Assembly (NCBI GenBank): GCA_947584295.1
Contig: CANPWM010000018.1
Location: forward strand, 1-35,272
Length of the DNA stretch: 35,272 bases
Direction of reading: 5' to 3'
From: an uncultured Oscillospiraceae bacterium
Lineage (GTDB): Bacteria > Bacillota > Clostridia > Oscillospirales > Oscillospiraceae
Position 1 is the stretch's first letter, and every line of letters begins with the position of its first letter. The translations under genes were made by a program, and so were the position numbers. Below, in pieces: positions 14,330 to 33,571 of the stretch. The notes below the pieces were generated by a model. That model ran no database searches. It saw only the letters and a program-made list of their open reading frames with translations, and was not told the DNA's origin.

Positions 14330-14357
14330 GCTTTTCCCGATCCTAAAAATCTTCCCC

Positions 14358-14446
14358 GCCCAAAGGAGGCGCTTCTATCTGATCCGTACGGGCCGGACAC
14401 CGGCCGGCCCGCCGATTTCCCATCTGCCCAAAGGAGGCGCTTTTAT
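14358..14446. repeat. REP-like hairpin flanked by duplicated ribosome binding site region
   Basis: Positions 14358-14378 and 14426-14446 carry the same 21-base sequence with one mismatch, including AAAGGAGG. Between them at 14384-14413 sits a copy of the CCGTACGGGCCGG hairpin. Only the second copy is followed by an ATG; in the first the corresponding bases read ATC. Confidence 0.8.
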
Positions 14447-16296: not shown

Positions 16297-17130
16297 CCGT
16301 ACGGGCCGGACACCCGGCCGGCCCGCCGATCGAATTTCGATTCCGCCTCCCCAAAAGGTTGCGGCTTCGCCGCTTATTCCCATTTCGGGCGGGTTTTGAA
16401 CCCGCCCCTACGGTTTTTAAGGAATTTTTTTCTTCTTTTTTTGCAAAATCTTTCATCAGAGCTTGTAGGGGCCGCCTCTCTTGGCGGCCCGCCGAATTCC
16501 CGGAAAATTTCCCCCAACCGCACCCGCCGAATTCCCGGAAAATTTCCCCCGATCGCACCTGCCGAATTCCCGGAAAATTTCCCCCGATCGCACCTGCCGA
16601 ATTCCCGGCAATCTATCTTTTATCGCCGTACGGGCCGCCGCCCACGGCGGCCCACCGTCATACGCAACAATTTCCCAATAATGATTTTGTTTTCTCCCAA
16701 CGCATAACCCCCCGTACGGGCCGGACACCCGGCCGGCCCGCCAAACGAATTACGGAAAATTTAATTTAACCGTCGTAGGGGCCGCCTCTCTTGGCGGCCC
16801 GTCCCGGTCAATATCCGGGCTGTCAATCAACGGTGGACGGGTCGCCCGGGAGGGCGACCCCTACGGAAGCGTAAGAATGAGTCATTGCGAAATTCGATGG
16901 TGCCACGGGCCGCCAAGAGAGGCGGCCCCTACAAGGTTATACGATAGATTCATGGTAATTCGCTGGGCCGCCGTGGGCGGCGGCCCGTACGGCGTATGAG
17001 GATAGATTTTTCGTAAATCGTCAGGCGGGCCGGCCGGGTGTCCGGCCCGTACGGAACATTATGCGTAATAAATCAGGCTTCCGTATAATCGGAGGGATCC
17101 GATTTAATCACCCGCCAACTTACGCCGCTG
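16297..17130. repeat. REP/REPIN-like repeat block upstream of the tRNA cluster
   Basis: No gene is supported in this stretch. Hairpins of the families seen after spoIIE occur at 16297-16327, 16465-16490, 16626-16653, 16712-16742 and 16775-16801 in one orientation, and at 16907-16932, 16965-16992 and 17024-17054 inverted. Two variants have different stems: GGGCGGG/CCCGCCC (about 16387-16412) and GGGTCGCC/GGCGACCC (16835-16866). Nearly all have GTAG or GTAC at one foot. Linkers such as CCGCCTCCCC-AAAAGGTTGCGG are also shared. Confidence 0.85.
16491..16609. repeat. 35-base tandem repeat, 3.4 copies
   Basis: Units start at 16491, 16526 and 16561 with a partial fourth at 16596. Each begins GCCGAATTCCCGGAAAATTT. 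Units 2 and 3 are identical and unit 1 differs at a few bases. The first unit begins directly at the end of a REP-like hairpin. There are no spacers. Confidence 0.9.
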
Positions 17131-17151: not shown

Positions 17152-17180
17152 AAAAAGACCGCCTTTCGGCGGTCTTTTTT
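17152..17180. terminator. Intrinsic terminator after tRNA-Lys
   Basis: AAAAAGACCGCC, loop TTTC, then GGCGGTCTTTTTT. The A tract on the plus strand gives a T tract for the minus-strand tRNA transcript, which ends here. Confidence 0.85.
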
Positions 17181-17255
17181 GGTGACCTGGCCGGGATTCG
17201 AACCCGGGACACCCTGCTTAAAAGGCAGGTGCTCTGCCTGCTGAGCTACCAAGTC
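17180..17255 (-). tRNA. tRNA-Lys (TTT)
   Basis: The minus strand folds into a full cloverleaf. The acceptor GACTTGG pairs with CCAGGTC with one G-U, the anticodon loop is CTTTTAA (anticodon TTT), the T-arm contains GGTTCGAATCC, and CCA is encoded. It is the last of five tRNA genes on this strand. Confidence 0.95.
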
Positions 17256-17304
17256 ATACCTTGTTCCATCGTATCTTTCAATATTTGTCGCCGCGCGTTC
17301 CCTT

Positions 17305-17335
17305 TGTCAAAAAAGGCCTCTGGCCTTTTTTGACA
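17305..17335. terminator. Hairpin terminator between tRNA-Gln and tRNA-Lys
   Basis: A perfect 14-bp inverted repeat, TGTCAAAAAAGGCC with loop TCT, gives GGCC-loop-GGCC followed by six T on either strand. It could stop or attenuate the tRNA operon before tRNA-Lys. A minus-strand TTGACA lies inside its outer stem but no good -10 follows, so a separate tRNA-Lys promoter is uncertain. Confidence 0.65.
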
Positions 17336-17339
17336 GGGC

Positions 17340-17414
17340 TGGCAGGGATGGCGGGACTCGAACCCACGAATGCAGGAGTCAAAGTCCTGTGCCTTACCGC
17401 TTGGCGACATCCCT
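17340..17414 (-). tRNA. tRNA-Gln (TTG)
   Basis: Minus-strand cloverleaf with acceptor AGGGATG/CATCCCT, anticodon loop CTTTGAC (anticodon TTG), T-arm GGGTTCGAGTCCC, and encoded CCA. Confidence 0.95.
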
Positions 17415-17430
17415 ATTTAACAGGTATATG

Positions 17431-17456
17431 TTGACGCCGCCTTCAGGCGGCGTCAA
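17431..17456. repeat. Perfect hairpin between tRNA-His and tRNA-Gln
   Basis: An 11-bp perfect stem TTGACGCCGCC with loop TTCA. No U tract follows, so it looks like a processing or spacer structure rather than a terminator. Confidence 0.6.
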
Positions 17457-17460
17457 CGCG

Positions 17461-17538
<78 letters not shown>

Positions 17539-17565
17539 ATATTCAATTTAGCCCCCAAACTTTGT

Positions 17566-17859
17566 CAATTGGGGTCCCCGCGCAATCGTAGATTGCGTGG
17601 GGAGAGGAGGAGCGAACCATCGCCGGTTCCGCCAAAATGGGGCCCCCGCGCGATTCTAAATCGCGTGGGGAGAGGAGGAGCGAAGCCAGCGTGTGAGGCG
17701 TGAGGCGGGCGCCCGTGGCGTTTGCCTCACGCCGAGGAACGCCTTCCGCGTCAATTGGGGCCCCCGCGCAATCGTAGATTGCGTGGGGAGAGGAGGAGCG
17801 AACCTGGCGAGTGAGGGCGAATACCTGGAGCCCGAACCATCGCCGGTTCCGCGACGACG
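17566..17859. repeat. Three copies of a hairpin-plus-tail element inside the tRNA operon
   Basis: Copies begin near 17566, 17635 and 17750. Each has CCCC-variable stem-GGGG followed by AGAGGAGGAGCGAA. The stems differ but still pair (GCAATC-GTA-GATTGC in copies 1 and 3, GCGATT-CTA-AATCGC in copy 2). Copy 3 has the full tail, ending CGCCGGTTCCGCGACGACG at 17859. Copy 1 looks like copy 3 with the stretch between two GAACC words removed. A fourth copy lies past the phage-like locus at 34118-34217. Confidence 0.85.
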
Positions 17860-17862
17860 ACG

Positions 17863-17939
17863 TGGCACGCCAAGAGGGACTCGAACCCCCGGCCTACTGC
17901 TTAGAAGGCAGTTGCTCTATCCTGCTGAGCTATTGGCGC
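17863..17939 (-). tRNA. tRNA-Arg (TCT)
   Basis: Minus-strand cloverleaf with acceptor GCGCCAA/TTGGCGT (one G-U), anticodon loop CTTCTAA (anticodon TCT), T-arm GGGTTCGAGTCCC, and encoded CCA. Confidence 0.95.
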
Positions 17940-18001
17940 GTGTTGAGTCGGCATCAGGTCTGCCTGAGCCGAAAACCGCCGGGGGAACACTGCCTTGCTG
18001 C

Positions 18002-18076
18002 TGGAGCGGGTGATGGGAATCGAACCCACGTCCCCAGCTTGGAAGGCTGGTGCACTAGCCGTTGTGCTACACCCGC
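18002..18076 (-). tRNA. tRNA-Gly (TCC)
   Basis: Minus-strand cloverleaf with acceptor GCGGGTG/CACCCGC, anticodon loop CTTCCAA (anticodon TCC), T-arm GGGTTCGATTCCC, and encoded CCA. It is the first tRNA after the operon promoter. The phage-like locus lies on its 5' side, beyond the promoter. Confidence 0.95.
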
Positions 18077-18243: not shown

Positions 18244-18636
18244 TCAGGCCTTTTTTTGCTGTAAAGCGGCTGTCAGGGTGTCCACATACGTTTTCAGCTC
18301 CTCCAAGGAGGGGAAAACGGGGATCGCCTCTCTTTGCCGGGAAAAGACGTTCCGCGCCGGGGGCTTGGGAGGCTCCGGCTTTTTCGGGGCCGGGGCCGGA
18401 ACAGGGGCGGGCGCAAGCCCGTCTGCCTCCCGTTCCAGATCCTCCACAGGTCTTTCGGAATAAAAATGATCCCGGAAGATGTGCCGCAGCTCATGCTCCA
18501 GGCACTCCTTCCGCCGGGCAGGGCTTAAATGGCTGCTCAGATAGATGTCAAAGGTGCCGTCGTCGTTGGGGACGGTCACCCCCTCCACCGTAGGCGGAAA
18601 ATCAACGACCCGGACAAAATAATCCGGCGTCCACAC
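18244..18636 (-). CDS. ImmA/IrrE-like metalloprotease, phage regulatory region
   Basis: The 130-residue protein contains an HExxH zinc-protease motif (H48 E49 L R H52, in LEHELRHIFRDHF). A Pro/Ala-rich linker follows (~74-95), then a C-terminal helix with LEELKTYVDTLTAALQQKK. ImmA-type proteases cut the partner phage or ICE repressor and so allow induction. The gene follows the repressor gene directly, with a 3-base gap, which supports that role. The start is GTG at 18634-18636 with a weak GGGCGAG site; coupling to the repressor gene is likely. The domain before the motif is short compared with typical ImmA, so activity should not be assumed. A strong terminator lies just downstream. Confidence 0.75.
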   Translation of the reverse strand: MWTPDYFVRVVDFPPTVEGVTVPNDDGTFDIYLSSHLSPARRKECLEHELRHIFRDHFYSERPVEDLEREADGLAPAPVPAPAPKKPEPPKPPARNVFSRQREAIPVFPSLEELKTYVDTLTAALQQKKA

Positions 18637-18639
18637 GGT

Positions 18640-19011
18640 TTACTCGCCCTTCTGCTCGGTGCGGCGCAGCGCGTCGATGATGGCGACGGCCCGCTCCACG
18701 TCCTTGGGGGAGGCGTCTTTGGCCAGGGAGAACAGCATTCTGCACTCGCTGCGGTTGCGCAGCATATCCAGATACGTCTCCAGCTCCGCGTCCATGGGGG
18801 CGGAGAAGGGCATTCTGTCGGTGCTCTCGCCCTTGAGATACGCCAGAGACACGCCAAAGAAGTCGGCGATCTTCTTCAGGGTCGAATCCCGGGGGACGCT
18901 GGACCCGGACTTCCAGGTGCTGAGAGCCGCCTGGGAAATGCCCGTCTCCTTGGACACCCGGTAGGACGTAACGCACTGTTCCTTACAAAGTTGCATAAAA
19001 ATTTCGTACAT
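18640..19011 (-). CDS. Phage repressor, XRE-family helix-turn-helix
   Basis: A 123-residue protein with an N-terminal XRE/cI-type HTH (about residues 16-62: SYRVSKETGISQAALSTWKS, then STLKKIADFFGVSLAYLKGE). The C-terminal helical region includes MDAELETYLDMLRNR and DVERAVAIIDALR. It should bind operators in the 19020-19240 control region to hold the phage-like genes off. No LexA/cI-type self-cleavage domain is seen, in keeping with inactivation by the ImmA-like protease encoded next to it. The ATG has an AGGAG site about ten bases upstream. Confidence 0.9.
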   Translation of the reverse strand: MYEIFMQLCKEQCVTSYRVSKETGISQAALSTWKSGSSVPRDSTLKKIADFFGVSLAYLKGESTDRMPFSAPMDAELETYLDMLRNRSECRMLFSLAKDASPKDVERAVAIIDALRRTEQKGE

Positions 19012-19056
19012 TTTTTGTTCACTCCTACAAATAATTATTTATGCTTAAAAAAGTGC

Positions 19057-19085
19057 TTGACAAATTGCGGCGGGAGAAGTATAAT
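19057..19085 (+). promoter_or_regulatory. Rightward promoter of the phage-like genes
   Basis: TTGACA (19057-19062), 17-base spacer, TATAAT (19080-19085), a perfect consensus. Its -35 lies in TGCTTGACAAA, a word also found at the -35 of the leftward promoter, so it may be a repressor operator. No gene starts for about 190 bases after the likely start site. Confidence 0.85.
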
Positions 19086-19206
19086 ACGACCATCAAAGCA
19101 AAGCAAACTTGCGAATAGTTCCTTACATTCCATTTACAAGCTTTGTGTGGCTTCGACTATATTTCGCCCCGCAGCGGGAGCTTGCGCCTTGGGCAAATAT
19201 ATATGA

Positions 19207-19235
19207 AGTATACCACATGCGCTTAATTTTGTCAA
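19207..19235 (-). promoter_or_regulatory. Leftward promoter towards the repressor, face to face with the rightward promoter
   Basis: Minus strand TTGACA (19230-19235), 17-base spacer, TATACT (19207-19212). It points at the repressor about 190 bases away and converges with the promoter at 19057-19085, so the two transcripts would overlap over roughly 100 bases. The -35 is again inside TGCTTGACAAA. Confidence 0.8.
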
Positions 19236-19279
19236 GCATTGCTTTGAAATTAATTTTCATTTTTAGGAGGAATGTGCAG

Positions 19280-19549
19280 TTGCGAATTTGGAGAAAAAGG
19301 CTGATCCCGGAGGGCGATGAACCGCCCGAAAACCGGGAGATGACGGGCCTCTACTGCCGGCGCTGTCTCCAGGAGCTGGAGCGCGGCGAGCTTTACGGCG
19401 TAGGGGAGCATGGCGTGGTGCTGTGCGCGGCCTGCGCCGGCGAGGAGTGGGAGAGCCTCACGGAAGGGGAGCGCCTCGCCCTGCTGGGGTTCGAGGTGCC
19501 TGACGAGACGGCCCCCGGGCCGGAGCCGGAGGAGGAAGGGGGGATCTGA
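19280..19549 (+). CDS. Small CxxC-CxxC zinc-finger-like protein, first gene of the phage-like operon
   Basis: A 90-residue protein with two CxxC knuckles (YCRRCLQEL and LCAACAGEEW, about 16 residues between them), suggesting a small zinc-binding fold. The C-terminus is acidic with EPEEEGG. TTG at 19280 is the likely start because AGGAGG lies nine bases before it; a GTG six bases earlier is in frame but too close to that site. It overlaps the terminase small subunit gene by one base. Position suggests an early or packaging accessory role, but nothing in the sequence fixes a function. Confidence 0.6.
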   Translation: MRIWRKRLIPEGDEPPENREMTGLYCRRCLQELERGELYGVGEHGVVLCAACAGEEWESLTEGERLALLGFEVPDETAPGPEPEEEGGI

Positions 19550-19950
19550 TGGAGCTTACCGCGAAAGAGCTGAGCGACGGCATCGACAGGTGCATCGCCC
19601 ACTGCACCCAGACGGGGGAGGCCCCGGTGGGATTTGTCCTGCACAAGTTCGTGGACGTCCCGGAGGGGGAGCTGGCCCGCTATCTGGAGCAGGGGGAGAA
19701 GATGCGCCGGGGGGAGCTGAAATATTCCCGCGGCCTGGAGATCCGCTTTCTGGCCGCCCGCCGGTGGGACGAGTTCAAGACGTTCTTTTGGCTGGACAGG
19801 GCCCAGCGCGACCCCAAAAACGCCAGCTTCGCCATGTTCAACCTGAAGCAGTCGGAAAACGGCGGCTACGCCGAGAAGGAGGCCAAAACGGGCAAAAGCA
19901 CCGTGGTCATCAGGCTTGACGGCGTAGGCGGCAGGGAGGCCATGGAATGA
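19549..19950 (+). CDS. Probable terminase small subunit
   Basis: A 133-residue mostly helical protein starting MELTAKELSDGIDRCIAHC. It lies immediately before, and overlaps by four bases, the terminase large subunit gene, where small subunits are normally found. Small subunits recognise the packaging site and activate the large subunit. No clear HTH motif can be read; the EIRFLAARRWDEFKTFFWLDRAQRDPKNA stretch (written here in context, residues ~64-92) is basic and aromatic. The call rests mainly on position and size. Confidence 0.6.
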   Translation: MELTAKELSDGIDRCIAHCTQTGEAPVGFVLHKFVDVPEGELARYLEQGEKMRRGELKYSRGLEIRFLAARRWDEFKTFFWLDRAQRDPKNASFAMFNLKQSENGGYAEKEAKTGKSTVVIRLDGVGGREAME

Positions 19951-21350
19951 GCGGCCTTCTAAGACAGGAGGGGGGAGCGGGCGCGGACAGGGCGGAGGAG
20001 AGCCGGATCGTCTTTGACCCGGGTACGGCCAACGAGAAGCAGCGGCGATTTTTCCTGGCCCGGGCGCCCTTCATCGCCTACGGCGGAGCCAAGGGCGGCG
20101 GCAAGACCTGGGCCGTGCGCGTAAAGGCCGTGGGCGGGGCCGTCTGCAACCCCGGCATCAGGATCCTCATCATGCGGCGCACCTACCCGGAGCTGGAGGA
20201 GAACCACATCGGCCCCATCGTCCATATGGTGCCGCCGGAGCTGGGGACGTACCTGGCCACCACCCGGCGCATGACCTTCTTCAACGGCTCCACCATCAAA
20301 TTCGGCCACTGGGCGGGGGAGCTTTCAGAGCTGGAGTACCAGGGCCAGGAGTTCGACTGGATCTTCATCGACGAGGCCACCCAGTTCACCGAGCGGGCCT
20401 TCCACTACCTGAAGGGGTGCCTGCGGGGCGTCAGTCCCTATCAAAAGCGCATGTACCTGACGTGCAACCCGGGAGGCGTTGGACACGTCTGGGTCAAGCG
20501 GCTTTTCATCGACAGGGACTACCGGCGCTCCCCAAATCCCGAGGAGGACGAGGCCCCGGAGGACTACGTCTTTATCCCCGCCACGGTGGAGGACAACGGC
20601 TTTTTGCTGAAAAGCTCCCCCCACTACCTGAAGATGCTGTCCCAGATGCCGGAGAACGTGCGCCGGGCCTACCGTTACGGCGATTGGGACGCCCTGGGCG
20701 GCAGCTATTTTTCCGAGCTGCGCCGGGACGTACATACCTTCTCCCCCATGCGTATCCCCCATCACTGGCGGCGCTACCGGGCCATGGACTACGGCCTCGA
20801 TATGCTGGCGGTGCTGTGGATCGCGGTGGACGGGGAGGGGCGGAGCTGGGTCTACCGGGAGTGGACGCAGCCGCGGCTCATCGTGCGGCAGGCGGCGGCG
20901 GGGATCCTGGAGCGGACGCTGCCCGGGGAGACGGTGGACGCCACCTTCGCCCCGCCGGACCTGTGGAGTACCCAGAAGGACACGGGCCGGACCATGGAGG
21001 AGATCTTCCGCTCCGGCGGCGTGCCGCTGACGCGGGCCGACAACAGCCGCGTCCAGGGCCATATGCTCATCAAGGATATGCTGGCCCCGGGGTCGGACGG
21101 CAGGCCCGGACTTATGATCTCCACCGACTGCCGGAGGCTCCTGGCGGACATGACCGCCATTCAGGCGGACGAGGACAACCCCGGCGACGCCGCCAGGGAA
21201 CCCCACGAGGTCACCCACACCGTGGACGCCCTGCGCTACTACTGCGTCTCCCGGGTGGCCCCCGCCGATCCGCCCCGGACGGAGACGGAGGAGTGGACGG
21301 GCGATCCCTTCTGGGGCGGGGAGCCGTCCTGGAGCTACCTGATGTATTGA
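19947..21350 (+). CDS. terL: Terminase large subunit
   Basis: This 467-residue packaging motor has an ATPase domain with Walker A G46-GAKGGGKT-54 (K53) and Walker B WIFIDEA (D142, E143), then a coupling motif in MYLTCNPGG. The C-terminal RNase H-like nuclease starts at AMDYGLDM (D281) and ends near EVTHTVDALRYYC. It cuts and translocates DNA into empty heads through the portal. Length and layout match the family, and no frameshift is seen, so packaging could still work. The gene overlaps the small subunit gene by four bases. Its stop codon lies inside the first unit of a decamer tandem repeat (21342-21395). Confidence 0.96.
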   Translation: MSGLLRQEGGAGADRAEESRIVFDPGTANEKQRRFFLARAPFIAYGGAKGGGKTWAVRVKAVGGAVCNPGIRILIMRRTYPELEENHIGPIVHMVPPELGTYLATTRRMTFFNGSTIKFGHWAGELSELEYQGQEFDWIFIDEATQFTERAFHYLKGCLRGVSPYQKRMYLTCNPGGVGHVWVKRLFIDRDYRRSPNPEEDEAPEDYVFIPATVEDNGFLLKSSPHYLKMLSQMPENVRRAYRYGDWDALGGSYFSELRRDVHTFSPMRIPHHWRRYRAMDYGLDMLAVLWIAVDGEGRSWVYREWTQPRLIVRQAAAGILERTLPGETVDATFAPPDLWSTQKDTGRTMEEIFRSGGVPLTRADNSRVQGHMLIKDMLAPGSDGRPGLMISTDCRRLLADMTAIQADEDNPGDAAREPHEVTHTVDALRYYCVSRVAPADPPRTETEEWTGDPFWGGEPSWSYLMY

Positions 21351-21395
21351 GCCTTATGTATTGAGATGAGTTGAGATGTATTGAGATGTGTTGAG
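21342..21395. repeat. Decamer tandem repeat spanning the terL stop codon
   Basis: Five ten-base units of the form ATGTATTGAG, with variants ATGAGTTGAG and ATGTGTTGAG, begin at 21342, 21356, 21366, 21376 and 21386. CCTT separates the first two. The first unit supplies the terL stop codon. Each unit contains a TGA. Confidence 0.9.
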
Positions 21396-21420
21396 TATAA
21401 TTTGCGAAAGGATGAGGGAA

Positions 21421-24144
21421 ATGGCGAAGATCACAACAAACGGCCGGGAGAAGGTCTTTAACATCACCCGCTGGCGGGGGGTCAACGAGGCCCCGGAGGG
21501 GGAGGCGGCCCTGCTGCCGGGGGAGGCGGCGGTGATGCGCAACTTCTGCGTCACCTCCGGCGGGGCGCTGAAAAAGCGGCCCGGGAGCCGGAATGTGGCG
21601 GGGTTTTTAAATGAGTACACCCCCCGCGTCCGGGAGGGGTCGGCCCGGTGCCTTCTCACCGAGACCGGGGCGGGCGGCGGCCTTACGCTGTACCCCCGCG
21701 TGGAGTGCGACGGCGTGGGGGCCGTCCAGTGCGCCGGGGAGGGCGTGACGGTGACCGGGGAGAACGCCGACGCCTACAAGGGGTATTTCTACCCCCGGGA
21801 CGGCCTGTGCTGGGCGCTGGACCGGGTGGAGCGCACCGGCGGCGTGGGCGGGGAGGCCATCACCGGCGGCACGGCGGCCCCGGGGACGCTGTCGCAGATG
21901 GCCTCCGGCGCCCTGAACACCGGCACGGGGGCCTGCGAGGGGACGGCGTACCTGGACACCTGGGCCGAGGCCGTCCTGGACAGCGCCGAGAGCGGCGTCC
22001 GGGTGGCGGGGGAGACTACCCGCCGGGAGGCCCCCGCCCGCCGGAGTCCCGGCTGGGACACCCGGGAGCAGGGCGGGTGGCTTCTGCGGGACGGGCGGCT
22101 GTGGAAGTATTACGGGGCCAGGGTGGACGCCTGCCGCCCCGGCACCGTCTGGAACAAATACCAGTGCGCCGTGGCCTATGACGGGGCCGCCGCCCAATAC
22201 GCCCCCGGGGCCTTTTTAGGGACGGTGACCACCCTGGACAAAGCCCTGCCCGACAGCGGCAGGGGCTATCTGAGCGAGGGGACGTTCTCTTACGGCGGCA
22301 CGGTCTACACGCTGATGCGCCAGGGCGGGGACTACTACTGCTACGAAAAGACCTCCGCCGAGCCGTCCTTCTACGAGGTGAGTTACAGCTTCCACGGGAT
22401 CCCCATGACGGTGACGGCCAACACCTGCCGGTGGTATTTCAACGAGACCTACGCCGCCCCGGCGGAGACGGCGGACAGCGCGGTGCGGGGCGTCTGGTCG
22501 GGCTTTGTCAAGGGCCGGGAGGTGCTGTGCGCCGCCTGCGGGGGGTTCCTCTGGGAGCTGAGGGAGCAGGACGGCGCGTGGACGCGTGTCTCCGCCGGAG
22601 CCATGGACACCTCCCGGGACGTACATATGTTCGGCTTCGACGAGAAGCTCTATCTTCTGAACGGGCAGAAGTACCTGGTCTGGGACGGGGACAGGCTTTC
22701 GGAGGTGGAGGGCTACCGGCCCCTGGTGGCCGTGGCCGTGCCGCCCTCCGGCGGCGGGACGCTTTTGGAGAACGTGAACCGCCTGACGGCGGGCCGCCGC
22801 GCCCGGTTCTCCCCGGACGGGGAGGCAAAGACCTTCCAGCTGCCGGAGGGGGATATCAGATCCGTGGACTGGGTAAAGGATCTGACGGCACCGGCGGCGG
22901 TCATCAGGAGCGACCAGGGCGGAGATGGGACCGTCGGACGGGTCGCCGGGGACGGCGACCCCTACGGCGAACCTGTTGCCGATGTCACAGCCGCCGCCGT
23001 TCCGGGGTACACCGTGGACCTGGCCGCCGGGACGGTGACCTTTGAGACCGCCCCGGAAAAGGGGGTGGATACGCTGGAGATCGCCTGGAGCGCCCGGGAG
23101 GACTACCGGGGGCAGGTGTGCGGTATGCGCTTCGCGGAGATCTACAACGGGGCCCAGGACACCCGGGTGTTCCTCTACGGGGACGGCTCCAACCGGGCCA
23201 TTTATTCCGGCCTTGACTACGACGGCAGGCCCCGGGCGGACTATTTTCCCGATCTCTACGAGGTGTCCGTAGGGGACGCCAACACACCCCTCACCGCCAT
23301 GATCCGCCATTATAATAAGCTGATGGCCTTCAAGCTGGACTCCGCCTGGAGTATTGGCTACGATACCATCACCTTAGTGGACGGGACGGTGACGGCGGGG
23401 TTCTATGTGGCCCCGGTGAACCGGGCCGTGGGCAACTGCGCCTGGGGCCAGGCACAGCTGGTGCAGAATAGGCCCCGCACCCTGGACGGGCGCAGCGTCA
23501 TCGAGTGGCAGGCGGCGGGCGCCTCCGGCGTCACCGGGGATCAGCGCAACGCCCAGCGGGTGAGCCAGCGGGTGGACAGCTCCATCAGGCGGTTCGATCT
23601 GACAAAGGCCCGCACCTTCTACGACAAGTTCAGCCACGAGTATTTCGTCATCGGCGAGGACGGCACGGCCATCGTGCAGAACCTGGACGTGGACGCCTGG
23701 TATGTGTATACGGGCCTGGAGGTGACGTGCATGATCAACTACCGGGACGAGCTTTACTACGGCACCCGGGACGGGACGCTCCGGCACTTCTCCGACAGCT
23801 ACTTTTCCGACAACGGGGAGGCCATCGACGCCGTGTGGGAGTCCGGGGCCATGAGCATGGGGCAGGACTTCCGGCGCAAGTACTCCGCCACGGTGTGGAT
23901 CGGCATACGCCCCGAGGACAACGGGTATCTGGAGGTGACGGCCCAGACGGACAGGAAAAGCGACTTTGCCGTGTACGACGTCCAGAGCCTCAACGCCGCC
24001 GGGGTGCCGGAGATGGACAGGATCAAGCTGAAGGCCAAGAAATTCACCTACTACAAGCTGATTTTGCGCAACGACACCGCCGACAAAACCGCCACCGTGG
24101 TCAGCGCGGACGTGAGGGTGAGAGAAGCGGGGTATGTGAGGTGA
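21421..24144 (+). CDS. P22 gp10-like tail stabilisation/hub protein
   Basis: A 907-residue, beta-rich protein that starts MAKITTNGREKVFNI and has the N-terminal motif typical of tail hub proteins: WRGVNEAP, LLPGEAAVMRNFCVTSGGAL, then KKRPGSR. The middle and C-terminal parts have many propeller-like strands (FLYGDGSNRAIYSG, MIRHYNKLMAFK, DGTLRHF). In P22-like and T7-like short-tailed phages such proteins close the portal and form part of the short tail. ATG 21421 was chosen over one nine bases upstream because of GAGGGAA spacing. Residues 506-516 (GRVAGDGDPYG) are encoded by a copy of a host hairpin repeat (22936-22967). Placement between terminase and portal is unusual. The family call is moderate; the repeat insertion is clear. 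Confidence 0.7.
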   Translation: MAKITTNGREKVFNITRWRGVNEAPEGEAALLPGEAAVMRNFCVTSGGALKKRPGSRNVAGFLNEYTPRVREGSARCLLTETGAGGGLTLYPRVECDGVGAVQCAGEGVTVTGENADAYKGYFYPRDGLCWALDRVERTGGVGGEAITGGTAAPGTLSQMASGALNTGTGACEGTAYLDTWAEAVLDSAESGVRVAGETTRREAPARRSPGWDTREQGGWLLRDGRLWKYYGARVDACRPGTVWNKYQCAVAYDGAAAQYAPGAFLGTVTTLDKALPDSGRGYLSEGTFSYGGTVYTLMRQGGDYYCYEKTSAEPSFYEVSYSFHGIPMTVTANTCRWYFNETYAAPAETADSAVRGVWSGFVKGREVLCAACGGFLWELREQDGAWTRVSAGAMDTSRDVHMFGFDEKLYLLNGQKYLVWDGDRLSEVEGYRPLVAVAVPPSGGGTLLENVNRLTAGRRARFSPDGEAKTFQLPEGDIRSVDWVKDLTAPAAVIRSDQGGDGTVGRVAGDGDPYGEPVADVTAAAVPGYTVDLAAGTVTFETAPEKGVDTLEIAWSAREDYRGQVCGMRFAEIYNGAQDTRVFLYGDGSNRAIYSGLDYDGRPRADYFPDLYEVSVGDANTPLTAMIRHYNKLMAFKLDSAWSIGYDTITLVDGTVTAGFYVAPVNRAVGNCAWGQAQLVQNRPRTLDGRSVIEWQAAGASGVTGDQRNAQRVSQRVDSSIRRFDLTKARTFYDKFSHEYFVIGEDGTAIVQNLDVDAWYVYTGLEVTCMINYRDELYYGTRDGTLRHFSDSYFSDNGEAIDAVWESGAMSMGQDFRRKYSATVWIGIRPEDNGYLEVTAQTDRKSDFAVYDVQSLNAAGVPEMDRIKLKAKKFTYYKLILRNDTADKTATVVSADVRVREAGYVR
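22936..22967. repeat. REP-like hairpin inside a coding sequence
   Basis: The 32 bases match the intergenic hairpin at 16835-16866 with two differences. Those differences are a matched swap of one base pair (C-G to G-C) in the 9-bp stem GGGTCGCC-x/x'-GGCGACCC with loop GGGA. It is read in frame as part of the gp10-like gene. Confidence 0.85.
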
Positions 24145-24184
24145 GTGAAACGGACGGGCATTTTACAGTCTTTCGTTAGACGCC

Positions 24185-24438
24185 GTAGGGGCCGCCGCCC
24201 ACGGCGGCCCGGATAAGGGAGCAGTTGCGTTAGAGATTGTAGGGGCCGCCTCTCTTGGCGGCCCGCGCAAGGACGCGGCGTAACCGCAACTTTTTGGGGA
24301 GGCGGAATCGAAATTCGAGTGGCGGGCCGGCCAGTGTCCGGCCCGTACGGGATCGCTGTACGAAAGAAAACATGAGATACGGGGGCCGAGGTGTATGACG
24401 GCGGGCCGCCTGGAGAGGCGGCCCCTACAAGCCCGATG
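24185..24438. repeat. REP-like hairpins within the phage-like locus
   Basis: The gene-free stretch 24145-24508 contains hairpins at 24185-24210, 24239-24264, 24321-24350 (inverted) and 24413-24438 (inverted), and the linker GGGGAGGCGG with CGGCGTAACCGCAAC (inverted copy of the host-region linker). They are the same families found next to spoIIE and before the tRNA genes. Confidence 0.85.
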
Positions 24439-24508
24439 GAGGGATTGCCCGAAAATAACGGGGTTTTCCCCGGCCGCCCGCAAGGAAGGAGATCATCAGG
24501 AGAAACAT

Positions 24509-25681
24509 ATGGCAATATCCATTTACGACGAACAATTTTTGAATGACGAGCAGAGGAAGCGGCTGCAGGCGTTTACCGACGCCTGGAACCAGGCCAACGC
24601 CAGGGGCGACAGGGCCGGTATGGAGGCCGCCCACGCGGCGGCGGAGCGGGTCCGGGCCGAGGCCAACTACTCCGGCACCATGGACGGCAGCGGCTTTGTG
24701 GATCTGGGCGGCGGCTCCGGCGGCCAGTCCGGCGGCTTTGGCGGCTCCGGGAGCTGGGACGGTCAGTCGGGCGGTTCCGGCGGCTGGGGCGATCTGAGCG
24801 GCTCTGCCGGGGGCTGGGGCGGCCAGACAGGCAGCACCGGCGGCTCAGGCTATGCCGGGGGCGGGTACAGCCCCACCCAGCTGCCTTCCTACGAGGCCGC
24901 CGTCAAGGAGGTGAACGACCTCTACGACGCGGCCCGGGCGCGAAAGCTCGGCGAGCTGAAGGCGGCTTACGACCGCTCCCTGGAGGCCCTGCGGGCGGAG
25001 GCGGAGAAGCTCCCCGGCCTCTATGACGTCCAGCGCAACGAGGCCGCCGCGGAGGCGGAGCTGGCGGGGCGGAATTTCAATGAATACGCCGCCGCCACGG
25101 GCCTCAACTCCGGCGCGGCGGGGCAGGCGGCCCTGGCCCGGTCCAACCGGCTCCAGGGGGAGCTGGCGGCTCTGGGACAGCAGGAGGCGGAGGCCCAGAC
25201 GGAGGCGGCCCGTCGGGAGACGGATCTGCGGACGAAATACGCCGGCGACGTGGCCGACGCCGTGGCCCAGGGGGAGCTGGACCGGGCGGCGGCGCTGCTG
25301 GAGGAGTACCGGCGGGCGGAGGAATCCCGGGTGGAGACGGCCCGCAAGCAGGCCGATGAGAATTACCGGGCCTGGCAGTCCGGGGTCACCGTCGCCCAGG
25401 CGGTGGAGAAGGCCCGGCAGGAGGCGGCCCAGGCGGCGGAGAAGGCCCGGCAGGAGGCGGCCCAGGCCCAGGCGGAGGCCGCCAGCGCCAGCCGGAAGGA
25501 GGCCCTGGAGCGGGCCGAGAGACTGGCGGAAGCCGGGGACTTTTCGGGGTATCTGGCCCTGGGGTATTCCCAGGCCGAGACGGAGGCCATGCGCCAGGCG
25601 TGGATCGCCAAAAATCCCGCCGCCGCCTACCGGGCGGGGCTGATCTCCTGGGAGGAGTTCAGCCGCATGACGGGCAAATGA
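24509..25681 (+). CDS. Gly-rich and coiled-coil phage protein of unknown function
   Basis: A 390-residue protein with a helical N-terminus (~1-50), a Gly/Ser-rich stretch (~55-120, with units such as GGSGGWGDLSGSAGG), and a long Ala/Glu-rich coiled coil (~128-350) with a near-exact repeat VEKARQEAAQA/AEKARQEAAQA. It closes with a short domain ending ISWEEFSRMTGK. The ATG is preceded by AGGAG. Located between the tail hub and portal genes, it could be an internal virion or ejection protein, as these are often Ala-rich and coiled, but that is inference. No transmembrane or enzymatic motif is seen. Confidence 0.65.
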   Translation: MAISIYDEQFLNDEQRKRLQAFTDAWNQANARGDRAGMEAAHAAAERVRAEANYSGTMDGSGFVDLGGGSGGQSGGFGGSGSWDGQSGGSGGWGDLSGSAGGWGGQTGSTGGSGYAGGGYSPTQLPSYEAAVKEVNDLYDAARARKLGELKAAYDRSLEALRAEAEKLPGLYDVQRNEAAAEAELAGRNFNEYAAATGLNSGAAGQAALARSNRLQGELAALGQQEAEAQTEAARRETDLRTKYAGDVADAVAQGELDRAAALLEEYRRAEESRVETARKQADENYRAWQSGVTVAQAVEKARQEAAQAAEKARQEAAQAQAEAASASRKEALERAERLAEAGDFSGYLALGYSQAETEAMRQAWIAKNPAAAYRAGLISWEEFSRMTGK

Positions 25682-25708
25682 GCGGAGAGAAAGGAAAGGG
25701 AGGATATC

Positions 25709-25951
25709 GTGATAAACGTACTTTTGGCCCTGCTGGCGCTGGTGATCGCCGAGGCGGCGGCGCTGGCGGGGGTGGGGATCGTGAAGGCAGTCCGGGAGCT
25801 GAAGGACCGGGGGGATACGCCGCCCCGGGGGATCGGGCAGGAACCCGGAGAGGACTACGAGAAACGCTGGCGGGAGGGCATGGACGCCATGATGGGCTAC
25901 GACCTGGCCGCCGCCCGCCGCGCCGCCGGGAGGGAACAGCATGAGGACTGA
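25709..25951 (+). CDS. Small membrane-anchored phage protein
   Basis: An 80-residue protein with an N-terminal hydrophobic helix (INVLLALLALVIAEAAALAG, ~2-22), then a charged tail with EPGEDYEKRWREGMD. GTG start with GGGAGGATATC before it. It overlaps the start of the portal gene by 11 bases. Function unknown; a signal-anchor topology is likely. Confidence 0.6.
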   Translation: MINVLLALLALVIAEAAALAGVGIVKAVRELKDRGDTPPRGIGQEPGEDYEKRWREGMDAMMGYDLAAARRAAGREQHED

Positions 25952-27539
25952 CGTGTTGAGAAACCGGCTGGCCCCGGAGGGCTTTGACGCCCCGGCGGAG
26001 CCGCCGGAGCGGGAGGATCCGCGAAACGCGCTGACCCCCGAGGCGGTGTGGGCGCTCTACGACAGGGGCAGGGCCTTCAAGGAGGCCATCGGCCTTTACG
26101 AGACGGTGAACACCAACGAGAACTTCTTCATCGGCAAGCAGTGGGAGGGGGTGCGGTCCAACGGCCTGCCCACGCCGGTGTTCAATATCCTGAAGCGCGA
26201 CGTGTGCTTTGTGGTCAGCTCCATCACCTCCGACAACCTGACGGTGCGGGCGACGCCCCTGGCGGCCTCCGCCGGGACGCGGGGGCTTACGGAGCCGGCG
26301 CGGATCCTCAGCGAAGAGCTGGAGAGCATCTTTGAACATGTGCGCCTGCCGTCCCTGCTGCGGGAGTTTGCCAGGGACGCGGCGGTGCGGGGCGATGGGT
26401 GCGTCTATACCTGGTGGGATCCGGAGCTGAAAAACGGCACCCCCGTGGACGGGGGCATCAGAAGCGAGGTGATCCCCAACACCCGCGTCCACTTTGGCAA
26501 TCCCAACGACAGGCGGGTGCAGGATCAGCCGTATATCCTGGTGGAGAGCCGGGAGCTGGTGGAGGCGCTGCGGGAGCAGGCCTATGAAAACGGAAGCCCC
26601 GACTGGGACGCCATCGCCGCCGACGACGACAACACCCACCCCGGCGACGAGCGCCGCACCGACGACAAGGTGACGAAGCTGCTCTACCTGTGGCGGGACC
26701 GGGACAGCGGGGAGATCTGGGGCTATGTCTGCACCAGGAACGCCCAGGTGAAGGCCCCATTCCCCCTGGGGGTGCGGCTCTACCCCCTGACGTGGCTCAA
26801 CTGGGACTATGTGCCTGACTGCTGTCACGGCCAGGCCATGCTGACGGGGCTTATCCCCAACCAGATCTTCATCAACAAGATGTGGGCCATGTCCATGCTG
26901 AGCCTGATGACCACCGCCTACCCCAAGATCGTCTACGACAGGACGCGGATCCCCAAGTGGACCAACCAGGTGGGCCAGGCCATCGGCGTCACCGGCGGGG
27001 ACGTGTCCACCGCCGCCCGCTCCATCTCCCCGGCGGCCATCTCCCCCCAGGTGACCCAATTCATCGAGGCGGCCATCGAGCAGACCAACAGGAACCTGGG
27101 CACCACCAACGCCGCCCTGGGGGACGTGAAGCCCGAAAACACCTCCGCCATCATCGCCCTCCAGCGGGCGGCGGCCACCCCCAGCGAGATCACCAAGCAG
27201 AACCTGCACCAGTGCGTGGAGGAGCTGGCGCGGATCTACATGGAGTTCCTGGCCTCCTTCTACGGCCTTCGGACGGTGGACCGGGAGGACGGTACCGCGG
27301 CGCTCTTTGACTTCAACGTGTTCCGGGAGCTGCCCATGGCGCTGAAGATCGACGTGGGGGCCAGCGCCTACTATTCCGAGATCGCCTCCATCCAGACCCT
27401 GGACAACCTGTTGAGCCAGGGGCGGATCGACATTTTGCAATACCTGGAGCGGGTGCCGGACGGGTACATCACCGACCGGCGGGGGCTGATAGACGAGATC
27501 AAAAAAGCGAGAGAGGAGAAGATGAAAAATGGAAATTGA
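25941..27539 (+). CDS. Phage portal protein
   Basis: This 532-residue protein has the portal pattern: an early helix with YETVNTNENFFIGKQW, GLPTPVFNILKRDVCFVVS, a wing with the NWDYVPDCCHGQAMLTGL segment, and a C-terminal crown. The portal is the dodecameric ring at one vertex through which TerL packages DNA. The middle part SPAAISPQVTQFIEAAIEQT and GDVKPENTSAIIALQRAAATP resembles portals of short-tailed phages of Clostridia. Length is normal and no frameshift is seen. It is followed, with an 11-base overlap, by the scaffold-like gene. Confidence 0.88.
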   Translation: MRTDVLRNRLAPEGFDAPAEPPEREDPRNALTPEAVWALYDRGRAFKEAIGLYETVNTNENFFIGKQWEGVRSNGLPTPVFNILKRDVCFVVSSITSDNLTVRATPLAASAGTRGLTEPARILSEELESIFEHVRLPSLLREFARDAAVRGDGCVYTWWDPELKNGTPVDGGIRSEVIPNTRVHFGNPNDRRVQDQPYILVESRELVEALREQAYENGSPDWDAIAADDDNTHPGDERRTDDKVTKLLYLWRDRDSGEIWGYVCTRNAQVKAPFPLGVRLYPLTWLNWDYVPDCCHGQAMLTGLIPNQIFINKMWAMSMLSLMTTAYPKIVYDRTRIPKWTNQVGQAIGVTGGDVSTAARSISPAAISPQVTQFIEAAIEQTNRNLGTTNAALGDVKPENTSAIIALQRAAATPSEITKQNLHQCVEELARIYMEFLASFYGLRTVDREDGTAALFDFNVFRELPMALKIDVGASAYYSEIASIQTLDNLLSQGRIDILQYLERVPDGYITDRRGLIDEIKKAREEKMKNGN

Positions 27540-28002
27540 GAGACAGGACTGGTTTTCTGAGGGGTGGGCCGAGGACGGCGGCGTTGTGGCCGACGGCCGG
27601 GAGGACGAGGCTCTGCCCCCGGAGCCGGAGGAGACAGGCAAGGCCGCCCCGGAGCCGGAGGAGACGCCCCAGGCCGCCCCGGAGGCGGCGGGGGAGGCGG
27701 CCCCCGAGGCCCAAGGCCCCGCCGCGCCCCAGGGCCGGGAGGCGGACTTCCTGGCGTTTATGGAGGCCTATCCCCAGGTGGAGCCGGGGGATATCCCCCC
27801 GGAGGTCTGGCGGCGGGCCGCCGCCGGGGAGAGCCTCACCGCCGCCTACGCCCGCTATGAGGCGGACAGCCTGCGCCGGGAGAACGCCTACCTCCGCCAA
27901 GGCCAGCGCAACCGCCTGCGCTCCGCCGGGAGCCAGCAGGGCGTTGGCGCGGGGGACAGGCGGCTGGACGCCTTCGACTCCGGCTGGGACAACGCCTATT
28001 GA
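27529..28002 (+). CDS. Probable scaffolding protein
   Basis: A 157-residue acidic, Pro/Glu/Ala-rich protein (residues ~25-70 contain PEPEETPQAAPEAAGEAAPE-type repeats) with a C-terminal helix (LRRENAYLRQGQRNRLRS). It lies between portal and major capsid genes, the usual place for a scaffold, and its composition fits. It overlaps the portal gene by 11 bases. Short for the class, and the call rests on position and composition. Confidence 0.65.
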   Translation: MEIERQDWFSEGWAEDGGVVADGREDEALPPEPEETGKAAPEPEETPQAAPEAAGEAAPEAQGPAAPQGREADFLAFMEAYPQVEPGDIPPEVWRRAAAGESLTAAYARYEADSLRRENAYLRQGQRNRLRSAGSQQGVGAGDRRLDAFDSGWDNAY

Positions 28003-28129
28003 TCCCCGGCGGCCCTTTTCGCGCCGGGAAGGGGGTGAGGCCGGTGTAGGGAGACAGAACGATCATAAAAACAGGAAAATATAACTTTTAAACCAAAAAA
28101 TAGGAAAAATGTAAAGGAGAAACGAACAT

Positions 28130-28963
28130 ATGGCAATCAATCTGGCAAAAAGAGCATCTGACAAGGTAGTGGAGCGGTTCAGGCTGGGATCCTGCACCGA
28201 GGGGATCTTCTCCAACCGCTGGAAGTGGACGGGGGTCAGCACTGTGCAGGTCTACTGTGTGGACAAGCTGCCTCTCAACGACTACGACAAGGCCAAGGAG
28301 GACGGCAGCCGCTTCGGGGCGCTGACGGAGCTGGGCGACACCGTCCAGGAGATGACCGTCACCGACGACAAGGCCTTCAACGGCTCCATCGACAAGGGCA
28401 ACAACACCGCCCAGATGATGATCAAGGCGGCCTCCAGCGTCCTGCGCCGCCAGACCGACGAGGTGATCATACCCTATGTGGACAAGTACCGCCTGAAGAA
28501 GCTGGCCGCCGGGGCGGGCCTCACCGGTGCCAACGTGGCCCTGACCCGGGAGAACGCCATCGAGACCATCATGAAGGCCGGGGCGGAGATGAGCAACCAG
28601 AAGGTGCCCCGGGACGGCCGCGTGCTGTATATCGGCGAGAGCGAGGCCATCAAGGTGAAGCTGGCCGACCAGGTGGTGGGCGCGGACAAGCTGGCGGGGC
28701 AGGTGCTGGTGTCCGGCGTCTGCGGCACCATCGACGGAATGCAGGTGCGGGTGGTACCCGACGACTATATGCCCGAAAACGTGGTGTTCATAATCGTGCG
28801 CAAGGGCTGCGCCGTGGCCCCCAAGAAGATCGAGACGTACCGTATCCTGGAGGAACACCCCGACATCGACGGCGCGGTGGTGCAGGGGCGCCTCCTGCAC
28901 GACTGCTTCGTGCTGGAGCCTCTGGAGGCCGGGATCTATGTGGGGAAGTCCAGTGGCAATTAA
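28130..28963 (+). CDS. Major capsid protein
   Basis: This 277-residue protein lies directly after the scaffold-like gene, where the major head protein is expected. It begins MAINLAKRASDKVVERF, has a flat helix and strand pattern with VQEMTVTDDKAFNGSIDKG and PRDGRVLYIGESEAIKVK, and ends VLEPLEAGIYVGKSSGN. The size and order match the small HK97-fold coat proteins seen in clostridial short-tailed prophages. No protease domain is present. The upstream gap (28003-28129) is A/T-rich with a strong AAGGAG site, suggesting high translation. The HK97 fold is inferred, not shown. Confidence 0.8.
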   Translation: MAINLAKRASDKVVERFRLGSCTEGIFSNRWKWTGVSTVQVYCVDKLPLNDYDKAKEDGSRFGALTELGDTVQEMTVTDDKAFNGSIDKGNNTAQMMIKAASSVLRRQTDEVIIPYVDKYRLKKLAAGAGLTGANVALTRENAIETIMKAGAEMSNQKVPRDGRVLYIGESEAIKVKLADQVVGADKLAGQVLVSGVCGTIDGMQVRVVPDDYMPENVVFIIVRKGCAVAPKKIETYRILEEHPDIDGAVVQGRLLHDCFVLEPLEAGIYVGKSSGN

Positions 28964-29276
28964 GCTGAAGCAGGGCGACGCCTACATGATGCCGCTGAGC
29001 GTCACCGTCAACGGCGGGCAGCTCCCCATAAGCCAGGTGGAGGCGGTGGAGGTGCGGCTGGGGAAGATCCGCAAGCTCTACCCGGAGGAGATCGGCTACG
29101 ACGTGGAGACGGGGCGGTTCCTGGTGCCGCTCCGGCAGGAGGACACCTTCGCCTTGCCGGAGGACGACGCGGCGCGGCTGGACGTGCGGGTGAAATTCAA
29201 GGGCGGCGCCGTGGCCGGGACGCAAAAAACCGCCACGGTGGAGGTCGTAGACGCGGTAAGCGAAGAGGTGATCTGA
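28953..29276 (+). CDS. Small phage structural protein of unknown function
   Basis: A 107-residue protein beginning VAIKLKQGDAYMMPLSVTVNG, with a beta-sandwich-like pattern of alternating strands (EAVEVRLGKIRKLYP, RFLVPLRQEDTF, RLDVRVKFKGGAV). GTG at 28953 is preferred over an ATG five codons earlier because it leaves a short 11-base overlap with the capsid gene. Proteins of this type occur next to capsid or fibre genes in clostridial prophages. It might decorate the head or anchor the fibre, but no function is recognised. Confidence 0.6.
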   Translation: MAIKLKQGDAYMMPLSVTVNGGQLPISQVEAVEVRLGKIRKLYPEEIGYDVETGRFLVPLRQEDTFALPEDDAARLDVRVKFKGGAVAGTQKTATVEVVDAVSEEVI

Positions 29277-29713
29277 GGCCGCATGGCCTTTGATCTGAGT
29301 ACCGGCAGACCCGCCGGGGGTTAAATAAGGTTGCCCGCCTTATGGGCGGGCGGGGATCTGCTTCCCCTCTTTTGACCCGCCAAAAGAGGGGAAGCAGCAA
29401 GGGGAGAAAACCGGCTCAGGGGGGATTTCGTTTTTTCCCCCCTGAGAACCCCCTTTTGAAAACGACCACACAGGGGCCGCGGCCCCTATGTGGAGAACCC
29501 CGGGGGAGCGCCCGCGGGAAAGCGGGCGCGGGAATTGGAATTTCCCCCGCACGAAATTTTGCGTTTTTAGCGTAAAGTTCCTGTACGGGCCGGACACCCG
29601 GCCGGCCCGCCAATCGAATTACGAAAAAACCATCCCTAAACCTTGTAGGATTTCCAAAAATCCGTCGATTAACCTTATCTTTTTACACGCATAAAATAAA
29701 AAGGAGGAATTTA
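29277..29713. other. Gene-free stretch with a cluster of hairpins
   Basis: Hairpins lie at 29361-29396 (15-bp stem GCTTCCCCTCTTTTG, loop of six), 29415-29446 (10-bp CTCAGGGGGG stem with a T-rich loop), 29467-29493 (12-bp stem with one mismatch around AGGGGCCGCGGCCCCT) and 29508-29529 (8-bp GCGCCCGC). A REP-like copy is at 29582-29611. It separates the head genes from the fibre genes. A weak promoter-like pair is at 29669-29697. Short open frames here show no coding character. Confidence 0.7.
29669..29697 (+). promoter_or_regulatory. Possible promoter of the fibre/lysis genes
   Basis: TTAACC (29669-29674), 17-base spacer, TAAAAT (29692-29697), just before an AAGGAGG site and the fibre gene. 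The -35 is weak. Confidence 0.4.
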
Positions 29714-31120
29714 ATGGATATCAACACAAGCTTGCCGGAGGCGGCGGGCGCGGTGGAGGTGGAGCTGGGGCAGTTCGGGCTGGTGCCCGGCCCCAAGGGG
29801 GACGCGGGAGAGCGCGGCCCCAGGGGGTACGGCATAGCGTCCGCCGTGCTGAACGAGGACTTCACGCTGACGCTCAGGTTCGAGGACGGCTCCAGCTACA
29901 CCACCCGCTCCCTGCGGGGGGAGACCGGGGCCAGGGGCGACACCGGCCCCACCGGCCCTGTCGGTCCCGCCGGGGACACCGGCCCCCGGGGAGAGCCGGG
30001 GCCTCAGGGGGAGCGGGGGGAGGCCTTTACTTATGAGGACTTCACCCCCCAACAGCTTAAGGCTCTGACCGGCCCCCAGGGAGAGCGGGGCCCCGCCGGT
30101 CCCGAGGGGCCCCAGGGCGGGAAGGGCGACACCGGCCCCACAGGCCCCCAGGGGGAGCCGGGGGACGTGTGGGTTCCCAGCGTGGCGGAGAACGGCGACC
30201 TCACCTGGGAGAAAAACGCCCCGGACGCGCCGGGGACGGTGAACATCAGAGGCCCCCGGGGGGAGCAGGGCCCCGCGGGGGAGCGCGGCCCGGTGGGGCC
30301 TGCCGGTCCCGGCGGCGGGGATATGGTGGAGGCCACCTACGATCCCCAGGGCATGGGCCAGGACATCTTCGCCTACGCCGACCGGGTGGCCGGGGAGAAG
30401 GCGGGGGAGGCGGTGAAGAACGTCAGCGCCGGGAACGTGAGATTTACAGACGGCGAGACGTTCCAGCAGAAGCTGGAGGCCGGGACGCTCAAGGGCGACA
30501 GGGGGGAGACCGGCCCCGCAGGCCCCACCGGCCCCGCCGGGAAGGACGGGGAACCCGGAGAACCCGGCGCCAGGGGCACTGACGGCCAGGACGGCCCCAC
30601 CGGCCCCGCCGGGAGGGACGGCGACACCTGGTTCCCCCGGGTGGACGCGGACACGGGGGTGCTTTCCTGGACGAAAAACACCGGCGGGGAGCCGGAGAGC
30701 GTGAACATAAAGGGGCCGAAGGGCGACACCGGCGCGCCCGGGGAGCAGGGCGCGCCCGGTAAGGACGGCGCGGCGGGCGCTCCCGGCAGAGACGGCGCCG
30801 ACGGCAAGGACGGCGCACCCGGCAAGGACGGCGCGCCGGGGGCCACCGGGCCCCAGGGGCCGGAGGGGCCGAACAGGGTGAGTACCGCCACCGCCACGGA
30901 CATCACCGGCCTTCTGAAAGGCGACGGGGCCGCCGTCCGGCAGGCGGCGGCGGGGACGGACTACATCTCCCCGGCAAATCTCACCGCCCGCCTGGGGCGG
31001 GGGGACAATGTGGCCGCCGCCAATACGGCCTACGGCAGTTTTATGGCCAGGGCCGTGGCCGCCGGGACGGAGGCGCCCCAGAGCCTTGCCGACGGGTGCG
31101 TTTTTCTGGTGTATGAGTGA
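29714..31120 (+). CDS. Collagen-like phage fibre protein
   Basis: A 468-residue protein with several G-x-y blocks (from [14 protein letters not shown] at ~26 to [12 protein letters not shown] at ~378). Two copies of a shorter linker domain break them: [16 protein letters not shown] and [17 protein letters not shown], each followed by VNI-x-GP-x-G. It should form a trimeric collagen-like rod. The C-terminus (~380-468, [18 protein letters not shown] to DGCVFLVYE) is like the end domain of phage side fibres. It probably carries or works with the lectin-fold adhesin encoded nine bases downstream. The start has AAGGAGG. Repeats make the length prone to change. Confidence 0.88.
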
Positions 31121-31129
31121 GGTGAGGGC

Positions 31130-32290: not shown

Positions 32291-32333
32291 GGGACGGGGA
32301 ATAAACTGTATATATAAAAAGAGGGAGAAAAAA

Positions 32334-32801
32334 ATGAAAGAAAATATCTGCAAGGGCCTGGTGGCCGCGGCGGGGGCCGCGGTGGGCCTCTACTTCAAGG
32401 AGCTGCTGGTACCCGTGGCGGTGCTGGTGGCGGTGATGCTCTTAGACTACGTTACCGGCATGGCGGACGCCTGGGCCGCCAGGGAGCTCAGCTCCAAGAC
32501 GGGGATCCTGGGGATCGTGAAGAAGCTGGGCTACCTTATCGCCGTGGCGGTGGCCGTGGTGGTGGACTGGGTGATCCAGTCGGTGGCCCATAACGCGGGG
32601 CTGGAGCTGGGGAGCTTTTACGCCTTCGGCCTTTTGGTGACGGTGTGGCTGATCCTCAACGAGCTTATCTCCATTTTGGAGAACCTGTCGGCCCTGGGCG
32701 TACCCCTGCCGGGGTTTTTGATGAAGGTGATCGAGAAGCTGAAAAAGACGGCGGAGGAGAAAGGGGACAGCAATGAATCTGATGAAATGCCTCCTCATTG
32801 A
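32334..32801 (+). CDS. Phage holin
   Basis: The 155-residue protein has three hydrophobic segments (~8-42, 65-85, 95-115) and a charged C-terminal tail. The DYVTGMADAWAARELSSKTGILG block is the signature of the TcdE/phage holin family (toxin secretion/phage lysis holin). Holins make membrane holes that release the endolysin. The gene overlaps the amidase gene by 29 bases, a normal lysis cassette. The ATG has a GAGGGAG site about seven bases upstream. Confidence 0.93.
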   Translation: MKENICKGLVAAAGAAVGLYFKELLVPVAVLVAVMLLDYVTGMADAWAARELSSKTGILGIVKKLGYLIAVAVAVVVDWVIQSVAHNAGLELGSFYAFGLLVTVWLILNELISILENLSALGVPLPGFLMKVIEKLKKTAEEKGDSNESDEMPPH

Positions 32802-33570: not shown

Positions 33571-33571
33571 G

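Follow-up and report, generated by a model that had tools for sequence, protein, structure and literature searches.

How can a hairpin that resembles a short dispersed repeat come to be read, in frame, as part of an otherwise intact phage gene? The question is raised by the window, the whole stretch of 35,272 nucleotides that was analysed here, which is contig 18 of a 2.35-Mb draft genome in 123 contigs (the own genome, G000) from an uncultured Oscillospiraceae bacterium. The initial annotation had described a hairpin inside a gene labelled gp10-like together with a near copy outside the genes, and had read the pair either as a sign that a mobile hairpin had moved into a coding region while keeping the frame, or as structure-selected variation. 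Its description of the two copies was confirmed by sequence comparison: they are identical at 30 of 32 bases, the two differing bases form one exchanged pair (C-G to G-C) adjoining the GGGA loop, a 9-bp stem is present in both, and the genic copy is translated within an intact frame of 907 residues (Table 1).

Table 1. Positions of the nozzle gene, its loop and the REP-like hairpins in the window
Feature	Position	Strand	Remarks
Tail-nozzle gene P0001 (predicted), 907 residues	21421..24144	+	mechanical frame may also start at GTG 21388
Length-variable nozzle loop, recurrent insertion site	22885..23004	+	residues 489-528
REP-like hairpin, in frame as GRVAGDGDPYG	22936..22967	+	residues 506-516
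Stems of the genic hairpin	22940-22948 and 22953-22961	+	
Tag CTAC of the genic hairpin (GTAG, other strand)	22962-22965		counting the last C of the run
Hairpin copy outside recognised genes	16835..16866	+	form common in own genome
Nine REP-like hairpins, clustered	16299..17054	.	tag orientation reverses mid-cluster
REP-like hairpin, intergenic, 3' of the nozzle gene	24189..24210	.	
REP-like hairpin within mechanical ORF 24395-25681	24403..24424	.	most likely 5' of the true start, ~24509
REP-like hairpin, 17-bp stem, past the last phage gene	34041..34078	.	

The repeat family in the window and in the genome

The repeat unit is a 22-nt hairpin inside a 32-nt unit which, read from the tag, runs GTAG, stem, loop, stem, the layout described for REPs in PMC3733652. 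A search of the window with the 32-base pattern, leaving the two variable bases open and permitting up to three mismatches, revealed exactly two matches, and none of 100 dinucleotide shuffles reached two. In the own genome, 59 exact matches of GGGTCGCC..GGCGACCCCTAC were found (none with the reversed-pattern control) and 521 of a related form, GGGCCG..CGGCCCBTAC (one with the reversed-pattern control). Under the search pattern the GGGTCGCC form ends in CTAC, and many of the GGGCCG copies among the matches listed end in GTAC. A set of 35-nt direct repeats with CCGAATTCCCGGAAAATTTCCCC was also observed at 16488-16611, inside the region of the clustered hairpins.

These properties are those by which REPs are recognised: a short palindrome of 20-40 bp in high copy number, here in two forms with 59 and 521 matches; a mostly extragenic location, with one of 216 sampled hairpins coding on both sides; and clusters of alternating orientation, represented here by the nine hairpins of Table 1. 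As for the associated REP transposase (RAYT), the model NF047646 had no match above its cut-off in any of 34 genomes and matches below it in 18, and the REP-bearing genomes G013 and G020 lacked any match to NF047646 or PF01797. Since the transposase test failed, we term the repeat REP-like; a REP transposase as its mover is unsupported by the curated model, and some other or since lost enzyme may have moved it.

The location of the hairpins was assessed in a sample of the genome, namely 216 distinct hairpins in 30 of 51 loci plus the window, with a codon-usage score trained on eight long frames of the window, one of which (14343-15296) is without a family match. The hairpin at 22940 was the only one with a coding score on both sides (0.14 and 0.32); for comparison, 200 benchmark positions, taken from five genes that were not used for training, nozzle gene included, had a 5th percentile of 0.04. 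The runner-up scored -0.14, and 117 of the 216 had no open frame across 120 bases on either side or lay too near the edge of their locus. The hairpin at 24403-24424 had been a candidate for a second in-gene copy and was set aside, as the matches of nine other loci start at residues 23-39 of that frame, that is, 3' of the hairpin.

The gene and its surroundings

The label gp10-like was borne out by the fold. An AlphaFold model built from 73 sequences reached a mean pLDDT of 89.7, and was used in place of an earlier model with a mean of 62. Foldseek matched it to the nozzle chains of SU10, P22, Sf6 and T7 with E values from 2.5e-16 to 6e-8; against the P22 gp10 chains these were 1e-11 to 1e-10, with TM scores by target of 0.62-0.66. 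A sequence search of the PDB with the protein gave no match. The modelled fold thus identifies the predicted product as a podovirus tail-nozzle protein of the P22 gp10 / T7 gp12 type. Matches to the gene occur in 28 of the 34 genomes of the genus, own included, and none was found in G001, G006, G007, G010, G012 and G023; homologues are also present in Bacillus phages, e.g., Pascal and Page, at 24-27% identity.

The hairpin is held by the only stretch of the model with pLDDT below 50, residues 494-523 (22900-22989), which is predicted to be disordered and sits between the strands 481-487 and 530-533, with the caveat that the low pLDDT of this loop may partly come from the few sequences aligned at the insertion. 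The protein varies in length at a second place, residues 252-264 (22174-22212), where a segment of about 100 residues is present or absent (7-11 residues in five of 18 genomes and 96-112 in 13).

The gene belongs to a compact cluster at 18529-33985 that comprises terminase, nozzle, portal, major capsid, collagen-like fibre, holin and amidase genes, in the same order in the four other species examined (L245-L248), whose capsid proteins are 85-96% identical. Among the part of the frames that was scanned on this contig, which ends at 35272, no integrase was matched. The cluster could be a domesticated phage-like particle. It is adjoined by five tRNA genes (Lys, Gln, His, Arg, Gly; 17180-18076), and such a set, whole or cut by the contig end, adjoins it on either relative strand in six of the 11 genomes examined, own included. 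The window also encodes SpoIIE.

The loop is empty, filled, or filled otherwise

The loop was compared over 19 genomes, own included, 18 of them measured for length and one (G009) taken from the alignment; G002, G003, G004, G005, G008, G011, G016, G018 and G019, being fragments or too divergent over the loop, were left out of the count. When the homologues were aligned, as the initial annotation had suggested, nine of the 19 had a short loop without these residues (5-11 residues in the eight measured) and ten a long one of 27-74 residues, and in seven of these ten the same loop held repeat palindromes, in frame. The idea that a mobile hairpin entered the coding region without breaking the frame is therefore well supported. 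The own loop has 39 residues against 5-11 in the insert-free genomes, a gain of about 28-34, so that more than the 11 residues of the hairpin were gained.

The palindromes are of several kinds. Those of G000 and G032 are of the GGGTCGCC type; G033, G031 and G027 carry three different GGGCCG types, with extra palindromes in G031 and G027; the loop of G020 has three palindromes of the AGCTCCCCC kind, and that of G022 one of the GCTCCCCTCAGAGAGGGGAGC type. No strong repeat is present in the inserts of the remaining long loops, those of G014, G024 and G029, and none of the three repeat patterns used had a match in the genomes concerned; the extra residues there therefore arose another way. The loop is empty in the REP-rich genomes G013 and G017. 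Even among the nozzle proteins of G013, G033 and G020, which are 84-89% identical, one loop is empty and two are filled with different repeats. A strict scan for perfect stems of at least 9 bp, run over the 15 full frames of the genus, detected hairpins in six, own included, each of them in the nozzle loop and none elsewhere in the gene. Across all 80 viral homologue frames, near-duplicates among them, the loop is 6-21 residues long; the scan gave no hairpin in the loop and 21 hairpin entries elsewhere in these frames.

Mobile palindromes thus seem to have entered coding DNA repeatedly, at one permissive site. A conserved peptide was rejected as the source of the resemblance, and ordinary protein conservation or chance is hardly credible: the frame is intact and the remainder of the gene well conserved, as that explanation would have it, but in other genomes the residues are absent or unrelated, and the shuffled windows did not reproduce the match. 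An error of short-read assembly, by which a repeat was misplaced into the gene, has to be considered for a draft as fragmented as this one, hairpins being prone to such errors. We regard it as very improbable, since in all seven genomes, which carry different repeats, the frame reads through the insert, and the genic form differs from the one common in the genome; for the latter reason the genic hairpin was not copied from a neighbour, either.

The exchanged base pair

In the own genome, the exchanged-pair form is represented by one of the 59 matches, namely the genic copy. It is abundant in sister species, accounting for 140 of 176 matches in G033, 47 of 67 in G013, 28 of 38 in G027 and 26 of 56 in G032 (the genic copy of G032 included), and it recurs at lower numbers in G020 (5 of 8), G031 (1 of 6) and G016 (1 of 1). 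From these copy counts, the exchanged pair is a standing subfamily of sister species, and not necessarily a change made in this copy. For that reason the structure-selected change proposed at the outset is not needed, nor is a compensatory change in place.

There is still something to be said for a hairpin kept for its RNA or DNA structure in the gene, with the exchanged pair as a compensatory mutation: pairing is intact in every genic palindrome seen, and the loops of G024 and G014 (L095, L097), whose nozzle proteins are 95% identical, have at the same place short palindromes that match none of the repeat patterns searched and differ by a paired change, which is a weak sign of structure being kept. 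Against this, the exchanged-pair form stands in many intergenic copies of sister species, nine of 19 genomes manage without any insert, and palindromes of unrelated sequence occupy the loop, such that we hold this explanation to be unlikely.

As a difference between subfamilies, the exchanged pair probably arrived with the element, whose source was an earlier host of the phage cluster or else a repeat population that this host has overwritten in the meantime. The first of these, that the repeat was picked up in another host species or from another phage cluster and then carried here, has in our judgement an even chance of being right. It accords with the single exchanged-pair copy here as against the 26 of 56 to 140 of 176 in G032, G033, G013 and G027, and with a parallel case in G022, whose genic palindrome has one copy in G022 itself, 44 in G030 and one in G025; of the 14 G030 copies examined, the four nearest match the 51-nt unit surrounding it at 50 of 51 bases. 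The nozzle tree places G030 with G022, G031 and G000 (support 0.95), and the rpoB tree, for which 23 of 30 rpoB loci were used (the gene was not found in G001, G020, G023 and G027), places it with G028 (support 1.00). The two placements of G030 differ and therefore the nozzle gene probably moved between hosts, in keeping with the case of G022. For G000, however, the two trees give the same neighbours, a low-copy native origin is possible, and five of the seven repeat-bearing genomes have the genic type at other places too. The ~51-nt repeat of G030 (L116-L125) is a second kind of repeat, in which two palindromes are joined; its exact core occurs 44 times in G030, and the loop inserts of G020 resemble a variant of it.

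The genic copy may instead be native and old, with the intergenic family of the host later overwritten by another form, a reading that we take seriously while placing it somewhat below an even chance. The two hosts nearest to G000 by rpoB, G016 and G031, each retain a single exchanged-pair copy, that of G016 sharing the GGAC and TACGGCG ends of the genic copy, and the agreement of the two trees for G000 fits such a history. On the other side, G000 and G032 share the form plus 19 of 33 bases on the left (p = 0.0012 in one of 20 comparisons, an agreement that would also fit exchange between phage clusters), and the case of G022 and G030, given the two placements of G030, fits transfer better. 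In two of the seven repeat-bearing cases, the loop hairpin mismatches the repeats that prevail in the host at present; a repeat type that is foreign to the present host, or has been lost from it, can thus be preserved in genic copies.

Proposed replacement of palindromes within the loop

The left flanks of the inserts in G033, G031 and G027 share 22-25 of 33 bases (codon-shuffle p of 0.0004 or less) and their palindromes differ. Each type is frequent in its own genome: the pattern for the loop type of G033 has 76 matches there, with the genic type in all among the matches listed; the type of the G031 loop makes up 32 of 33 pattern matches; and a looser pattern for the G027 type, which does not distinguish exact types, has 81. 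In G020, the loop-type pattern occurs at 27 sites, two of them inside the nozzle gene. The simplest reading of the shared left flank would be that the insertion is old and that local repeats later took the place of its hairpin. REP-by-REP replacement is proposed because G033, G031 and G027 share the DNA on the left although the palindrome of each is of a type frequent in its own genome. The right flanks of the three agree poorly (9-16 of 33 bases), so that separate insertions at a shared landing site are a possible alternative to replacement.

We consider it highly probable that the hairpin is a REP-like mobile palindrome which ended up, in frame, within a flexible loop of the nozzle protein. 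REPs would insert at many places and persist in coding DNA only where the extra residues are harmless, and the nozzle loop, between two beta strands, may be one such place. Once the slot was filled with a REP, other REPs might, and this we propose less firmly, replace the occupant. Going further, the loop may be a standing exchange slot in which host REPs are swapped with the frame kept, the phage cluster thereby recording its past hosts, and this record could be read from the REP subfamilies, which are particular to each host species; we put this forward tentatively, with more doubt than confidence.

If repeat types absent from the host are indeed preserved in genic copies, such copies could serve as markers of the hosts in which phages of uncultured bacteria once lived. 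Repeated uptake of unrelated palindromes at the same coding site helps to distinguish the places that REPs reach from those where they can survive, and a natural comparison is available within one gene, as the site is found empty, filled, or filled otherwise.

Comparison with known systems

The nozzle proteins of podoviruses (P22 gp10 and T7 gp12, also Sf6 and SU10) have the fold predicted for the present protein, which differs from P22 gp10 and T7 gp12 in its low identity (8-11%), its long whole-chain rmsd and the extra loop that it carries.

A literature search, with most subscription journals outside its reach, found no paper on REPs inside a phage structural gene. The repeat itself has clear relatives. 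The passages on GTAG-tagged REPs in PMC3733652 and PMC2817692 describe short palindromes with GTAG at one end, in high copy number, in clusters of both orientations and with occasional intragenic copies, and report subfamilies with complementary stem changes. The present repeat shares the short palindrome, which in the GGGTCGCC form carries the GTAG end, the high copy number, the two-way clusters, the subfamilies with complementary stems and the occasional intragenic copy. It differs in that its related form ends in GTAC or GTAA, that no REP transposase was found above the cut-off, and that the gene entered is a phage structural gene. Its host is also different: the list of GTAG repeats in PMC3733652 names Proteobacteria, Cyanobacteria, Chloroflexi and the PVC group, and GTAG-tagged REP-like repeats are now placed in Oscillospiraceae. 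Different REPs at about the same site have been noted as well, in recB of two Xanthomonas species (PMC3733652, section 15).

The Rickettsia palindromic elements (RPE), given as ~150 bp long and present in many unrelated genes where PMC10969869 and PMC3733652 treat them, are by this description likened to the present repeat as palindromic repeats that lie in frame in protein genes and are apparently tolerated; by the same description they differ from it, in that the present unit measures ~32 nt and the repeated use concerns a single loop of a single gene. In-frame REPs are already known, from Rickettsia and others, and what is new here is the recurrent use of the nozzle-loop site and the mismatch of its occupants with the repeats of the host.
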